DNA of 24,020 bases from a virus: the IMG/VR virus record IMGVR_UViG_3300032245_000657, positions 1 through 24,020 of that record. The stretch is one strand, 5' to 3'. Below the pieces are notes generated by a model. That model saw only the letters and a list, made by a program, of their open reading frames with translations. It was not told where the DNA came from and searched no databases. Positions 3,063-22,763 of the stretch are shown piece after piece (the first letter of the stretch is position 1; each line of letters starts with the position of its first letter). The position numbers were made by a program, and so were the translations under genes.

Positions 3063-3602
3063 TCAATCCTTATTAGGATGATATTCTCCACCTGAAAAAA
3101 CAATTCCTGCTCTAGGCGTTAAAGATTCTACTCCATGTTCTGTTCCATATTGAATATAGACAATATCCCCAGGTTCCACCAAATATTCGTGTGCTTGACC
3201 ATCCTGATATAACGTCCAAATAGTGGCTCCTACTGTTGTCCAGTGAATTGTATCAGTAGTGTCAGTATGTCTTACAATTCCGCTTTTTTCAGCAAGTGCT
3301 CTGTAATTTTCAGAAATTACAAAAGTAAATTGTCCTTGTGATGCTTTACTTCCATATACTGCACCCATAACTTTAAGAAAATCTGCTGCACCATTAAAGT
3401 GAGATATATCGTGATCTTGATCTACGTGTAAGATATAGAATCCTTTATAGTCAGATCTATAGTTTCCCGCCGTTTTTGAAAGTTCAACATAATCCATAAA
3501 ATTCTGCCAACTTGGTGTTTGCACCAAAGCTTTCTTAAAAATTTTATGATTGATGTTAGGATCTGCCATAACATCTTTAAATTCTTGGATTAATTTTTCC
3601 AT
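3063..3602 (-). CDS. JmjC/cupin-like putative oxygenase
   Basis: A 179-residue protein when started at ATG 3602. That start is preferred over a TTG 15 bases upstream because the TTG codon abuts a -10 box TATAAT (3609-3614). Cupin/JmjC features are clear: RHTDTTDTIHW holds candidate metal ligands (H112, D114, H120), and EPGDIVYIQYGTEHGV has H156 in the usual distal position. It may be a 2OG-dependent hydroxylase or a plain metal-binding cupin. The N-terminal half (residues 1-60) is unrecognised. Confidence 0.65.
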   Translation of the reverse strand: MEKLIQEFKDVMADPNINHKIFKKALVQTPSWQNFMDYVELSKTAGNYRSDYKGFYILHVDQDHDISHFNGAADFLKVMGAVYGSKASQGQFTFVISENYRALAEKSGIVRHTDTTDTIHWTTVGATIWTLYQDGQAHEYLVEPGDIVYIQYGTEHGVESLTPRAGIVFSGGEYHPNKD

Positions 3603-3608
3603 ATCTTT

Positions 3609-3636
3609 ATTATACAATATTTCAGATAATAGTTAA
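3609..3636 (-). promoter_or_regulatory. Promoter of the JmjC-like gene, leaderless
   Basis: On the minus strand TTAACT, a 16-base spacer and TATAAT (complement of 3609-3614), followed by six bases and the ATG at 3602. Confidence 0.55.
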
Positions 3637-4391: not shown

Positions 4392-4811
4392 TTAGAAATT
4401 TTCTTTGGTCAAGCTTTTTGACAAATATTTTATTGCATTGTCCATAATGTCCGTATTGTCATTAAATTGACCAAGAGCTAAATTACAACCATTACAAAGT
4501 AAGCCTCTAACTTTATTCGTGCTATGGCAATGGTCTACATGGGTATCTTTAGAGTTTTTAAATATATTGCCGCAGATCTTACATCTATTGTTTTGATCTA
4601 AAAGCATTTGATCAAATTGCTCTTGAGTAATTCCATACCTACGCTCTTTAGTACGCTCTCGCATTCTAACTAAATGTCTTTCAACATTTTCTGGATTATC
4701 TTTTCTCCATTGTCTAGCTGCTGCATTTTTGCAATCTTTGCAATCTTTTCTACCAGAATAAAAATCAGAAATATTTTTTTCTACCCCGCAAACTTTACAT
4801 ATTTTTAACAT
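4392..4811 (-). CDS. HNH endonuclease, endonuclease VII family (copy 2)
   Basis: 139 residues when started at ATG 4811, chosen because the protein then begins MLKICKVCGVEKN like its neighbour. The ATG lies inside the last codons of the upstream gene. Zinc-binding pairs C5/C8 with C24/C27 form an N-terminal ribbon. The nuclease core has C77/C80, DHCH (D93, H94, H96), and C106/C109-N110, as in T4 endonuclease VII relatives. It could be a free-standing homing endonuclease or a junction resolvase. The adjacent similar gene points to a tandem duplication. Confidence 0.8.
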   Translation of the reverse strand: MLKICKVCGVEKNISDFYSGRKDCKDCKNAAARQWRKDNPENVERHLVRMRERTKERRYGITQEQFDQMLLDQNNRCKICGNIFKNSKDTHVDHCHSTNKVRGLLCNGCNLALGQFNDNTDIMDNAIKYLSKSLTKENF

Positions 4812-5247
4812 ATTCAATTGCCTTTCTAATTGTTTCAATATTATCTTTGAATGCTCCAATACCTAGATTACATTTTCTGCAAAGAAGTCCACGCACCACA
4901 TTTGTAGTATGACAATGATCTACTGATGCTTCCCATCCGATTTCTTTTTTGCATATAGCACACTGATTATTCTGGTCGACTAGCATTTGTTCATAGTCTT
5001 CACGAGATATTCCATATTTTATTTTTCTAGAAGTTGCAATTGATGCAGATTTAGATTTTTCTGGATTATCTTTATTCCATTTAACATTCCTTTGATTAAA
5101 ACAAGGTTTGCAGTAGGCAGTTAATCCGTCTTGCCTAGACTTCCATTTATAGAACTTTGATCTTTCTTTTAGTTCCCCACAAACAGGACATTTTTTGTGC
5201 GTCGCAGTATTTGCCATATAAAACTTGCCTTTTCCAATATTTGCCAT
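4795..5247 (-). CDS. HNH endonuclease, endonuclease VII family (copy 1)
   Basis: 150 residues with the same layout as the next gene. An N-terminal zinc ribbon (C20/C23, C46/C49) is followed by YGISREDYEQML, C96/C99, VDHCH (D110, H111, H113) and C123/C126-N127, the endonuclease VII-type beta-beta-alpha-metal site. Such proteins nick or cut DNA, as branch resolvases or homing endonucleases. TACAAT six bases before the ATG predicts a leaderless mRNA. It overlaps copy 2 by 17 bases. Confidence 0.8.
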   Translation of the reverse strand: MANIGKGKFYMANTATHKKCPVCGELKERSKFYKWKSRQDGLTAYCKPCFNQRNVKWNKDNPEKSKSASIATSRKIKYGISREDYEQMLVDQNNQCAICKKEIGWEASVDHCHTTNVVRGLLCRKCNLGIGAFKDNIETIRKAIEYVKNM

Positions 5248-14033: not shown

Positions 14034-14060
14034 TAAGCCATATCAACGAAAGGATATAAT

Positions 14061-14795
14061 ATGCCAAATTGGGTGTATAACGGTTTAACTATTGAAGGAG
14101 ACCCTTCACAAGTAAAGGCTTTAATGGCTCAGATGAATAAGCCATTTACTCAGGAGCACGATTCTTGGAATGTAAAGACTAATGCTATGGAGAAGGAAGT
14201 TATTGTTTATTCTAATCCCGTCTTTGCTTTCCGTAATATCTATTCTCATTTAGATCACGGTGTAACTGATGATGAATATAATTCTCAGCCGCCTGCCAAA
14301 TCAGCAGACCTTTCATTTGCAGACTTTCTTAAATTTGAATCTAATGACTGGTACAACTTCAACTGCCGTGAATGGGGTGTCAAGTGGGATGTTGCTGTAT
14401 CTGATGAAAACTCTTATTCTAATACTTATTTTGAAGAATCAGAAAATGGCGAGAACTATGTAGTCTTTTACAACTTTGAGACTGCTTGGGCACGCCCTGT
14501 TTCTGCCCTTGAAAAATTATCTGCACAATACCCTAATTTACTTATGACCTTGAACTATGAAGAAGAAACAGGCTGGGGTGGTGAAATGGAATTCCTTCGT
14601 GGTGGAATAATCTCAGATAATTTTTGGGAGAGCAAATGCCGTAATTGTGATGAAATAGATTGTTTAGAGTATTGCGACAATGGCTGTGGCGAGATATGTT
14701 TATCTTGTAATTGGACTGATGACCTAGATGCCGAATGTGCAGAGAAATGTCAGACCCATATGGTACTATTAAATTCTACCGAAGGAGCGGAATAA
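14061..14795 (+). CDS. Api92/DUF1281-like protein with Cys-rich tail
   Basis: 244 residues. The start MPNWVYNGLTIEGDP and the later WGVKWD and ETGWGGEMEF are typical of Api92/YubB-like (DUF1281) phage proteins with a ferredoxin-like fold, role unknown. The C-terminal 55 residues hold nine Cys (CRNCDEIDCLEYCDNGCGEIC and beyond), probably a zinc-binding extension not usual for the family. The extreme C terminus overlaps the promoter at 14748. Coupled by TAATG to the next gene. Confidence 0.75.
   Translation: MPNWVYNGLTIEGDPSQVKALMAQMNKPFTQEHDSWNVKTNAMEKEVIVYSNPVFAFRNIYSHLDHGVTDDEYNSQPPAKSADLSFADFLKFESNDWYNFNCREWGVKWDVAVSDENSYSNTYFEESENGENYVVFYNFETAWARPVSALEKLSAQYPNLLMTLNYEEETGWGGEMEFLRGGIISDNFWESKCRNCDEIDCLEYCDNGCGEICLSCNWTDDLDAECAEKCQTHMVLLNSTEGAE
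14748..14769 (+). promoter_or_regulatory. Middle-type promoter inside a gene end
   Basis: TGTCAG (14748-14753), 10 bases, TACTAT (14764-14769), then CGAAGGAG before the ATG at 14795. Confidence 0.5.
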
Positions 14796-16321: not shown

Positions 16322-16355
16322 TACTAAGGGCGAAGAAATTCGTTTACGGCAGCTA

Positions 16356-16384
16356 TTTACAATTCCGTGAATAGTTGATATAAT
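16356..16384 (+). promoter_or_regulatory. Sigma70-type promoter of the Lsr2-like gene
   Basis: TTTACA (16356-16361), 17-base spacer, TATAAT (16379-16384). No TGTCRG box, so it differs from the other middle-block promoters. Confidence 0.65.
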
Positions 16385-16414
16385 TAATAAAACATCTCTT
16401 GAAAGGGGATTAAT

Positions 16415-16561
16415 ATGACAACAAAGCGTGAATATCTAAAAGCTCAGGGAATCACAGTTGGTGCTCGTGGCCGCTTCTCAGGTGCAGCAAAGGTAGCATT
16501 GCAGGAGGCAGTCCAAAAGGGCGTAACCTTCACTGCAGAAACACCAAGCACAAAGAAGTAA
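16415..16561 (+). CDS. Miniature Lsr2-like DNA-binding protein
   Basis: 48 residues with SD GAAAGGGG. The segment REYLKAQGITVGARGRFSG and the helix after it resemble the C-terminal DNA-binding domain of actinobacterial Lsr2, whose RGR loop enters the minor groove of AT-rich DNA. The N-terminal oligomerisation domain of Lsr2 is absent. Lsr2-like proteins are known in actinobacteria and their phages. A lone DNA-binding domain could compete with the host silencer or act locally. The match is by eye and short. Confidence 0.55.
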   Translation: MTTKREYLKAQGITVGARGRFSGAAKVALQEAVQKGVTFTAETPSTKK

Positions 16562-16574
16562 GGTCCCAAAGATC

Positions 16575-16610
16575 GGAAGGGTTGGTAGGTCTAGGCTTGC
16601 CAATCCTTCC
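16575..16610 (+). terminator. Possible terminator after the Lsr2-like gene
   Basis: GGAAGG (16575-16580) with CCTTCC (16605-16610) and an inner TTGG/CCAA. Only a short T-run follows (CCATTTTGG). Confidence 0.45.
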
Positions 16611-16625
16611 CCATTTTGGTACAAT
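16597..16625 (+). promoter_or_regulatory. Sigma70-type promoter
   Basis: TTGCCA (16597-16602), 17-base spacer, TACAAT (16620-16625). It drives the gene at 16649 and overlaps the terminator stem. Confidence 0.55.
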
Positions 16626-16648: not shown

Positions 16649-16993
16649 ATGAAATCAGTAGAGCAGAAGTTGGCAGATGATATTGCTAACGCAGTGGAAA
16701 GCCATTGGTTCAACCCAGCAGTTATAGCAAGACTATTAGCAAATCAACCTATCTACACAACAGACCGAGTTATGGAATTGGTCGCACAGATCATTAGAAC
16801 TATCTCTATGAAAGAAGACGAAGCCGAAGGCGTGGCTCTGGCTAAAGTATTAGATAGTCAAATAAAGTTATTACAGACTGAACATAAGTTCCAAATTAAA
16901 CTTCCTAATCGCAATACATATAAAGTAAAGCGGGCGGAACCGATTAGACAAGCATCCTTTGGTTGGAAGGAAGAGTCTAATCCATTTACATAA
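16649..16993 (+). CDS. Hypothetical protein, 114 aa
   Basis: SD GGGAGGCGGAG precedes the ATG. The first 80 residues are helical (KLADDIANAVESHW, RVMELVAQIIRTI); the tail is basic and extended (LPNRNTYKVKRAEP). Last plus-strand gene before the convergent junction. No family recognised. Confidence 0.65.
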   Translation: MKSVEQKLADDIANAVESHWFNPAVIARLLANQPIYTTDRVMELVAQIIRTISMKEDEAEGVALAKVLDSQIKLLQTEHKFQIKLPNRNTYKVKRAEPIRQASFGWKEESNPFT

Positions 16994-17049
16994 GGTATAT
17001 ATGAGAGAAGCATACCTGCTATATAGATAAACATATATAGCCCAAATTA

Positions 17050-17081
17050 TCCACAGGTTTTCCACAGCCTGTGGATTTTTT
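17050..17081 (+). terminator. Rho-independent terminator overlapping a DnaA box
   Basis: TCCACAGG (17050-17057) pairs with CCTGTGGA (17068-17075), followed by six T. The exact DnaA box TTATCCACA at 17047-17055 overlaps its left arm. It ends the middle block. Confidence 0.75.
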
Positions 17082-17113
17082 GTATGTGTGGGAATGAGGG
17101 CCATTTTTTTTAT

Positions 17114-17142
17114 TTACGACCAAGCTATAAAAATCCCTGAAA
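17114..17142 (+). repeat. Bipartite element TTACG-N17-CCTGAAA
   Basis: Eighth copy, part of a longer direct repeat with the copy 70 bases downstream. No promoter box or CRP-like site is attached. Confidence 0.6.
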
Positions 17143-17183
17143 GCTGTAGCTTATATCTATAAATTGTGGGCAGATTTTTCCAT

Positions 17184-17212
17184 TTACGACAAGTCTAAAA
17201 AAATCCCTGAAA
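17184..17212 (+). repeat. Bipartite element TTACG-N17-CCTGAAA
   Basis: Ninth copy; TTTACGAC and AAAAATCCCTGAAA are shared with the copy at 17114. Confidence 0.6.
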
Positions 17213-17218
17213 TCTCTG

Positions 17219-17325
17219 CAGAATCTGTATAAATGTATATTAAATCTAACATAATATATACAGAATTAGGCAGAATATGCCAGAAATTCTGCACAATTTA
17301 TAGCATAAATCATTGACAAATTCTG
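17219..17325. repeat. CAGAAT iteron-like cluster
   Basis: CAGAAT at 17219, 17261 and 17271, CAGAAA at 17281, and the reverse form ATTCTG at 17286 and 17320. Three copies are spaced by exactly 10 bases. Confidence 0.45.
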
Positions 17326-19614: not shown

Positions 19615-20190
19615 TTAGTTTTCTTCTATGCGAAAGTTTAAGGTAGCTCTAGATGAGTTTGATGTAACCCTATGAACGGCATTGGCAGGTACTAACATAA
19701 GGTCTCCCTCTTCTAAAGGTATACACTCTAAAATTGTTTGTCCATCTTCATCAAAGATATCCCATGTAGTTGTACCCTTTAATTGAAATGCAACTGCATC
19801 CCAAGCATCTGAATGTATTTCAGACACATATTCAGTAGCAACTAAATTACAAAATAATTGAACAGCATCCCTTTGATTAGGCTGCCTAAAAATATTATCA
19901 ATGGTTTTTATAGCATAATCAACTTCATTTAAAAGAAGTGGTAATTCTGGTACAAATTGAACATATCCTATTGTTCCTATTATAGAAGAAACACGATTTT
20001 TATAAACATATTTAGGCTCTGAATAATTCTTATTCATAGTAGACAAAATGTCAGTTTCTTTAGATAAGCTTTTGTTCATTAGATCTATAAGGCTATCCCA
20101 AGAAACATCTACGTCCTTAAAGCCTTTTATATGCATGATTTTTTTAGAAGACCTATAATTTTTCCATTTATTAAGATCTATTTCTTTCAT
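19615..20190 (-). CDS. JmjC/cupin-like putative 2OG oxygenase
   Basis: 191 residues. HSD (H126, D128) and PANAVHRV (H173) are the expected metal ligands of a JmjC/cupin_8-like dioxygenase; LEEGDLMLVPANAVH is the typical turn before the distal His. R181 or R187 could bind 2-oxoglutarate. Relatives hydroxylate proteins such as ribosomal proteins, but the substrate here is unknown. The ATG overlaps the upstream stop (ATGA). It is related only at fold level to the protein at 3063. Confidence 0.7.
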   Translation of the reverse strand: MKEIDLNKWKNYRSSKKIMHIKGFKDVDVSWDSLIDLMNKSLSKETDILSTMNKNYSEPKYVYKNRVSSIIGTIGYVQFVPELPLLLNEVDYAIKTIDNIFRQPNQRDAVQLFCNLVATEYVSEIHSDAWDAVAFQLKGTTTWDIFDEDGQTILECIPLEEGDLMLVPANAVHRVTSNSSRATLNFRIEEN

Positions 20191-20730: not shown

Positions 20731-21297
20731 TTATTTTCCAATAGAATCAGAATATATTAATCTTAACCAAATTGGCATAGCATATCTTTTATTGTTTCCT
20801 AAAACTGGTTTTGTGCCATGCTCATAAAGACTAATAGTTGGATGTATTATTAGATCCCCAGGCTTTGGCTTGTACTGTATGTTTAATTGTGGATAATAAA
20901 TTTCTCCACCTTCAAATTCATTTAAGTATAATACTGCTCCCCAGATATTAAAAGCATTTGTTGGTACGGAGCTTTCCGATAATACATTATCAAACCACGG
21001 GTTATCACAATGTACGTGCATTTGATCGCCTGGAGACTGCCTTATTATTGTATCTCCATCAGCAACGTCATATTGTCCCCAAAAAAGTTCATCCACACGA
21101 TTTTTAATTAATTTTGTTATTTCTGTGTTTTTAACCAAACAAACCCTATTACTAACAAATGGTCCTTCTAATACGTTCCAGTTTAATTCTGTTTTAGTTT
21201 GTTCAGTTAATTCATTTAACATAGATTCTTCTAGAAAATTTTCAATAACGTAGATATGTTTATCTAAATTAAAGTATTTTTGTGAATTTATTTTCAT
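20731..21297 (-). CDS. 2OG-Fe(II) oxygenase
   Basis: 188 residues from ATG 21297, chosen because the promoter -10 ends six bases earlier. Ligands are H96 and D98 (HVHCD) and H160 (YEHGT); R171 follows in NNKRYAMP. GGEIYYPQLNIQYKPKPGD is close to GGDIFYPDLNINYQPSAGD of the oxygenase at 1398, so these two are the nearest paralogues. Likely monocistronic, with its own promoter on each side. Substrate unknown. Confidence 0.87.
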   Translation of the reverse strand: MKINSQKYFNLDKHIYVIENFLEESMLNELTEQTKTELNWNVLEGPFVSNRVCLVKNTEITKLIKNRVDELFWGQYDVADGDTIIRQSPGDQMHVHCDNPWFDNVLSESSVPTNAFNIWGAVLYLNEFEGGEIYYPQLNIQYKPKPGDLIIHPTISLYEHGTKPVLGNNKRYAMPIWLRLIYSDSIGK

Positions 21298-21303
21298 ATG
21301 ACT

Positions 21304-21332
21304 ATTATACAATTTATAAATATGATAGTCAA
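21304..21332 (-). promoter_or_regulatory. Sigma70-type promoter, leaderless start at 21297
   Basis: Minus-strand TTGACT, 17-base spacer, TATAAT, six bases to the ATG. The -35 overlaps the stop of the upstream small gene. Confidence 0.78.
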
Positions 21333-22238: not shown

Positions 22239-22763
22239 TTAGCTAGTTATGGAGATTCTTATCCTTTTGGGCCAAAAGAATCCTACAAATGCATTTCTAT
22301 TGCCAGATTTTACTTCTTTAACCTCATGCATGAGGCTTTCATCTCCTTTAAAGAATATAAAGGTTCCAGCTTTTGGTTTAATTATTTTGTTTTGATCTGG
22401 AAAATGTAGTTCTCCACCGATATAGTCTTCATTTAAATAAAACAATGTAGATATATCATCTTGACCATTTTCAATATAGTTATCCCAATGAAGTGGATTA
22501 ACTGCTCCAGGAGTCATGATACTATGAAATAATGATTTTAATTCCATTTCTTCATTATAATAAGCAGATAGGTATAACCCTATTCTCTTTGTAATATTAG
22601 ATAGTAGAGTATCTTGGTTATAAAATTCAAGTGCTTTTTCTGTACCTACACCAAAACCTGTTTTAACAAATGGATCCTCTGCATCCCATATATTTTTATT
22701 ATAATGATTAAAGAGATCATCACATTCCTGTTGAGATAAAAATCCCTCTATAATATTTATCAT
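22239..22763 (-). CDS. 2OG-Fe(II) oxygenase
   Basis: 174 residues. H92 and D94 (LHWDN), H146 (LMHEV) and R156 (GNRNAFVGFFW) are the ligand set. IGGELHFPDQN and PKAGTFIFFKG are beta-helix strands. The HWD and GNR style links it more to the oxygenase at 2304 than to those at 1398 and 20731. The ATG overlaps the upstream stop (ATGA), so it is coupled to the small zinc-binding protein gene. Substrate unknown. Confidence 0.87.
   Translation of the reverse strand: MINIIEGFLSQQECDDLFNHYNKNIWDAEDPFVKTGFGVGTEKALEFYNQDTLLSNITKRIGLYLSAYYNEEMELKSLFHSIMTPGAVNPLHWDNYIENGQDDISTLFYLNEDYIGGELHFPDQNKIIKPKAGTFIFFKGDESLMHEVKEVKSGNRNAFVGFFWPKRIRISITS

Follow-up and report, generated by a model that had tools for sequence, protein, structure and literature searches.

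For the analysis of this locus, the window was the whole 24,020-base IMG/VR virus record. An open reading frame with an ATG start lies on its plus strand at positions 16,415-16,561 (stop codon included) and encodes a 48-residue protein, MTTKREYLKAQGITVGARGRFSGAAKVALQEAVQKGVTFTAETPSTKK, with a net charge of +6. Scanning IMG/VR recovered 179 relatives, and most loci that came up in a rescan with a broader alignment were already among them. Eighty of the 179 were kept for comparison, among which 52 distinct proteins were found, and the length of the protein is nearly constant (47-50 residues at 80/80 loci). Twenty-two columns are invariant across the 52 proteins, including K4, R5, Y7, G12, V15, R18-G19-R20, F21, S22 and A24-A25-K26. 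The AT-hook-like Arg-Gly-Arg motif at residues 18-20, encoded at 16,466-16,474 (plus strand) and aligned with the RGR of Lsr2, is identical in 52/52 proteins, while the near-invariant surface extends beyond the loop that carries it. The gene closes a rightward block, which also contains a tRNA-Asp and a DUF932 gene, and its position in this block is kept at 80/80 loci. Median identity of the protein is 83%, compared with 30-65% for the widely shared flanking genes, and the median pairwise dN/dS is 0.14. The open reading frame is a real gene under purifying selection; the number of relatives, the invariant columns, the kept locus and the low dN/dS rule out a chance reading frame.

A second candidate, a piece of a longer Lsr2 whose N-terminus had been overlooked, was also rejected, as in-frame stops lie close upstream (0-49 codons) at all 80 loci. 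No fused, longer form was detected among these loci. Among the 15 related contigs exceeding 67 kb, none encodes the Lsr2 oligomerisation domain (PF11774, 0/15), and in none does an Lsr2 DNA-binding domain pass the Pfam cut-off (0/15). The upstream stops and the lack of PF11774 bear out an earlier note, drawn from the letters of this DNA, which had described the protein as having no oligomerisation domain. Searches of bacterial genomes for relatives gave 26 pattern matches, none of which was confirmed, and 0/151 Nanopelagicales genomes contained one in a search run without a positive control.

The 48-residue protein scored 14.2 bits against the Pfam family Lsr2_DNA-bd (PF23359), below the curated cut-off of 26.9 bits, and all 52 members matched this family weakly, with a best E of 0.0082. 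PHROG 6269, annotated as 'Lsr2-like DNA bridging protein', was matched at E 3.6e-7 over profile positions 6-44, and was also matched by all 52 members (best 4e-9). An hhalign comparison of the family profile with 18 C-terminal domains of Lsr2, taken from phages and from bacterial genomes, gave a match of 93.3% over 30 ungapped columns, and adding the Streptomyces-phage homologues described below gave 94.5% over 32 columns. The hhalign scores were 33-35, against at most 17.5 for column shuffles and at most 13 for reversed profiles; 100 column shuffles of each profile stayed at or below 15%, and the reversed profiles gave about 2%. The invariant R5, G12, V15 and R18-G19-R20 match the Lsr2 pattern R......G..V..RGR. 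Neither the protein nor its family profile found a match by sequence in the PDB, and NCBIfam gave none either. We consider it very probable that the protein is homologous to the Lsr2 DNA-binding domain, and the likeness of its RGR segment to the DNA-binding half of Lsr2, already proposed in the earlier note, stands as a remote homology on the hhalign (93-94%) and PHROG 6269 matches. With the C-terminal domain of Lsr2 (PDB 2kng, 6qkp, 6qkq) the protein shares the R.W/Y....G..V..RGR pattern and the ungapped 30-column profile match; that domain, however, is only the C-terminal half of Lsr2, whereas here the corresponding domain makes up the whole protein and falls below the Pfam cut-off. Lsr2 proper (PF11774 plus PF23359) begins with the N-terminal dimerisation and oligomerisation domain PF11774, which the 48-residue protein lacks, while the family has a conserved C-terminal segment, G36-x-x-F39, that is missing from the Lsr2 domain. 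AT-hook-like residues serve both Lsr2 and H-NS for reading the minor groove of DNA (PMC6936261).

The nearest annotated relatives come from Streptomyces phages of the Stanwilliamsviridae, in which 103 records match Wakanda gp234. The first ~40 residues of Wakanda gp234, Blueeyedbeauty gp212 and Bmoc gp7 are 43-55% identical to the 48-residue protein (tblastn), and these homologues keep the motif as (K/R)GR. In these proteins of 172-194 residues, the same domain is followed first by a canonical Lsr2 domain for DNA binding and then by a Cys-rich tail. In the two proteins scanned, those of Wakanda and Blueeyedbeauty, the second domain matched PF23359 above the cut-off, and no Lsr2 oligomerisation domain was found. 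Thus, the Stanwilliamsviridae proteins of PHROG 6269 share their N-terminal ~40-residue domain with the 48-residue protein but carry a second Lsr2 domain and a Cys-rich tail, whereas the 48-residue form is the first domain alone. In phage Bmoc, the Lsr2-like gene is located near the genome end, ~2 kb away from a gene whose DNA resembles that of the window's DUF932 gene. Another Wakanda protein, gp233 (L082:2584-2862), consists of 92 residues with two tandem Lsr2-type DNA-binding domains, and is annotated as a DNA bridging protein despite the missing Lsr2 oligomerisation domain.

An AlphaFold2 model of the 48-residue protein, built on a thin alignment, had a pLDDT of 75 and placed helices at residues 4-10 and 23-34 on either side of a 12-residue loop. 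The control, a genuine phage Lsr2 C-terminal domain, was modelled with a pLDDT of 84, with helices at 7-19 and 32-41 and a loop of 12 residues as well. RGR occupies positions 8-10 of the loop in both models (residues 18-20 here, 27-29 in the control). The 48-residue model differs from Lsr2 in having short terminal strands on either side and a shorter first helix. Foldseek retrieved no Lsr2 structure with this model, while with the control domain it retrieved 2kng and 6qkp, at 66-68% sequence identity; because the control is so close in sequence to these structures, the miss is a caution rather than a refutation. The structural comparison with the Lsr2 C-terminal domain, which the earlier note had put forward as a check, therefore came out divided: the helix, 12-residue loop, helix arrangement and the place of RGR agree, but Foldseek finds no Lsr2.

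Upstream of the gene, a sigma-70-type promoter on the plus strand (16,356-16,384; TTTACA-17-TATAAT with TG before the -10) matches the consensus at 11/12 positions and has an equivalent upstream in related loci, in agreement with the plain sigma70-type promoter read from the letters before. An imperfect dyad (CAGCTATTTAC...GTGAATAGTTG; 16,350-16,377, plus strand) overlaps the -35. In many relatives it is more perfect, as CTATTTAC-aaatc-GTAAATAG, and in some both arms are altered to CTATTGACC-aaatc-GGCAATAG as against CTATTTAC/GTAAATAG. The dyad is a possible operator. Between promoter and start codon lies a leader hairpin, ATCTC-TTGAAAG-GGGAT (16,394-16,410, plus strand), which folds and has the Shine-Dalgarno sequence GAAAGG in and beside its loop. 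The sequence of the stem varies among the phages yet stays paired, with 4/5 pairs changed on both sides. Its covariation score, calculated with rows of other loop length left out, was 0.585 compared with 0.207 in shuffles, none of which (0/500) reached 0.585, and sliding the pairing partners abolished the signal. The closest published parallels to this hairpin are the Start Associated Sequences of two groups of actinophages, the cluster K mycobacteriophages (GGGATAGGAGCCC; PMC3203893) and the cluster EF Microbacterium phages (GGGAAAGGACCCC; PMC7302621), which, in our own reading, may likewise form stem-loops whose loop holds the ribosome-binding site. A hairpin specific to the 48-residue gene is ruled out by the same arrangement at the gene at 14,061, upstream of which a hairpin at ~14,036-14,057 holds the Shine-Dalgarno sequence GAAAGG in its loop; as a single sequence, this second hairpin folds no better than its shuffles.

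After the stop codon, a terminator-like hairpin of 16 pairs with a weak T tail (16,575-16,610, plus strand) closes the transcription unit, and a 10-17-pair hairpin of varying sequence occurs 3' of the stop in 49/49 distinct downstream regions. In several phages (window 16,575-16,625; L001, L011, L012) the -35 belonging to the next gene lies within the 3' arm of this hairpin, so stem pairing and the promoter of the next gene appear to be constrained together. With its own promoter, a structured leader and a hairpin after the stop, the gene thus forms a short transcription unit of its own, served by RNA polymerase of the host type, and its host-sigma-70-type promoter would permit high and early expression of the protein. 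The next gene (16,649-16,993, plus strand) encodes 114 residues of no known family and adjoins in 78/80 loci.

Other features were observed elsewhere in the window. A tandem pair of direct repeats, each of 70 nt and with 73% identity between them, occupies 17,095-17,234, an AT-rich non-coding stretch between convergent gene blocks, and each contains TTTACGAC and AAAAATCCCTGAAA. Close by, an inverted repeat at 17,043-17,082, which includes a DnaA-box-like TTATCCACA ahead of a T run, is a candidate replication-origin signal or terminator. Several 2OG-Fe(II) oxygenase and cupin-fold genes are found within this one 24-kb phage fragment, comprising 2OG-Fe(II) oxygenases at 1,398-1,979, 2,304-2,906, 20,731-21,312 and 22,239-22,763 and cupin-like genes at 3,063-3,617 and 19,615-20,190. 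Two adjacent, overlapping genes at 4,392-5,247 resemble recombination endonuclease VII (both E ~9e-23).

WhiB is an actinobacterial marker. It is encoded in 13/15 of the related contigs longer than 67 kb, which argues that this phage group infects Actinobacteria. Similarity of WhiB itself pointed to no single host, giving only five weak matches at ~40% identity in scattered genomes. The related loci have a GC content of 0.33-0.41, and that of the phage genome is 37%. Their dinucleotide signature was nearest to that of Nanopelagicales (0.09-0.18, against 0.15-0.32 for other genomes, which had not been selected for a freshwater origin; the comparison is also confounded by GC). The tRNA-Asp was 81-82% similar to those of Nanopelagicales, near the top of the ranking, with three large genomes higher at 84%. 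Many of the related contigs presumably derive from lake metagenomes, as we take it from the IMG numbering, and Nanopelagicales dominate the freshwater Actinobacteria (PMC6802176). Low GC, dinucleotides, tRNA-Asp and freshwater dominance together suggest that the hosts are probably Nanopelagicales.

The Nanopelagicales genomes were selected by what we take to be the 16S signature of the acI clade, which record titles confirm for several of them (Planktophila versatilis, P. lacus, LanE43). PF11774 was found in 0/151 genomes of this order, to which P. versatilis belongs, and PF23359 above the cut-off in 1/151; there, a 534-residue open frame (G123:C27:4372-4464, L131) has a C-terminal Lsr2 DNA-binding domain (1.5e-10). 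Run over the whole class, the search for Lsr2 was positive in 235/297 genomes (79%), which indicates that the absence is particular to Nanopelagicales, and some other small genomes, and is not a failure of the search. We found no paper that joins Nanopelagicales and Lsr2, and the absence should be useful to anyone who proposes anti-silencing in their phages.

On balance, we favour, with somewhat better than even confidence, the explanation that the 48-residue protein is a single Lsr2-type domain which acts as a non-bridging, AT-hook-like phage DNA-binding protein, either a regulator or a coat of AT-rich DNA. Two short helices are predicted to hold the 12-residue loop, from which Arg-Gly-Arg would enter the minor groove of AT-rich DNA. 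Since the oligomerisation domain is absent, the protein should not bridge or polymerise as Lsr2 does, and it is therefore most likely a small nucleoid-associated or regulatory protein. As to what it regulates or coats, we infer AT-rich sites in promoters of both phage and host and in the phage genome itself, with its 37% GC, where its occupancy would tune transcription or shield DNA during takeover. Such an action would be independent of host Lsr2, which is absent from the likeliest hosts.

A quite different role was suggested for the protein in the earlier note, which saw in it a minimal anti-silencing strategy that could block Lsr2 from phage DNA: with AT-rich phage DNA occupied by the isolated domain, host Lsr2 could neither nucleate nor spread there, and early phage genes would escape silencing. 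An Lsr2-type domain free of the oligomerisation domain, a conserved promoter and a homologous domain in phages of Streptomyces, which do have Lsr2, are all compatible with this proposal, and dCas counter-silencing, in which an Lsr2-like silencer is displaced by steric interference, shows that such blocking works in principle (PMC12239563). However, the proposal received no support from the distribution of Lsr2, found in 0/151 genomes of the order inferred as host against 235/297 in the class, and it is doubtful because the likeliest hosts are without the very Lsr2 it needs. A monomer would moreover face a cooperative oligomer, and many phages of mycobacteria depend on Lsr2 and are hindered, not helped, by its loss (PMC10066036). 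The precedent for a silencer homologue with the DNA-binding domain only, sRok/RokLS20 of plasmid pLS20, binds genome-wide and complements Rok rather than antagonising it (PMC7074111, PMC6936261). It resembles the 48-residue protein as a DNA-binding-only xenogeneic-silencer homologue on a mobile element, but it belongs to the Rok family, has a winged helix of unrelated fold and acts like Rok in competence. The known dominant-negative fragments, H-NST and truncated CgpS, keep the oligomerisation half and have no DNA-binding half (PMC7074111, PMC8612146); they too are truncated xenogeneic-silencer homologues, but the truncation is opposite to that of the 48-residue protein. Similarly, the short Lsr2 proteins of the lytic actinophage clusters BD, BK, EE and EH are described as the N-terminal oligomerisation domain without the DNA-binding domain (PMC10066036), and so, though also shorter than 80 residues, represent the reverse half. 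Taken together, we regard competition with host Lsr2 as unlikely, though conceivable should the true host be a different one.

Two further explanations concern what the domain binds. It could be a DNA-targeting subunit that works only with a partner protein of phage or host (for example the 114-residue neighbour, WhiB or RNA polymerase), having arisen as a split of the multi-domain Streptomyces-phage protein. The homologues in those phages do belong to larger proteins that also contain another DNA-binding domain and a Cys-rich tail, the gene for the 114-residue protein adjoins at nearly all loci, and the near-invariant surface is larger than the RGR loop; nevertheless, the absence of any fused form among the 80 loci, the apparently separate transcription unit of the neighbour and its failure to match any family make a subunit rather improbable. 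Drift of the domain to another role, such as binding a host protein or RNA, with DNA binding lost, would agree with the Pfam score below the cut-off, the missing Lsr2 structure in Foldseek and the extra conserved G36-x-x-F39, but is quite unlikely given that R18-G19-R20 is invariant in the family and is retained as (K/R)GR in the Streptomyces-phage homologues.

A more specific and tentative idea is that, in a widespread group of large phages, a minimal, monomeric, Lsr2-derived binder of AT-rich DNA works alone in bacteria that have no Lsr2 and stands in for host sensing of AT-rich DNA. The phage might use such a substitute for marking or shielding its own 37% GC genome, or for shutting host promoters. 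The domain and its family are already known from annotations in Streptomyces phages, as are DNA-binding-only silencer homologues in another family. The stand-alone 48-residue form across a large group of uncultured phages and its conserved transcription unit are new, and so, probably, is the use of this form in bacteria without Lsr2. Phage homologues of Lsr2 are discussed as full-length silencers or as oligomerisation fragments that poison the host protein. With only 48 residues the protein is easy to make, which renders the question directly testable, and if its hosts are truly without Lsr2, the DNA-binding domain would have a use that is independent of Lsr2 silencing.
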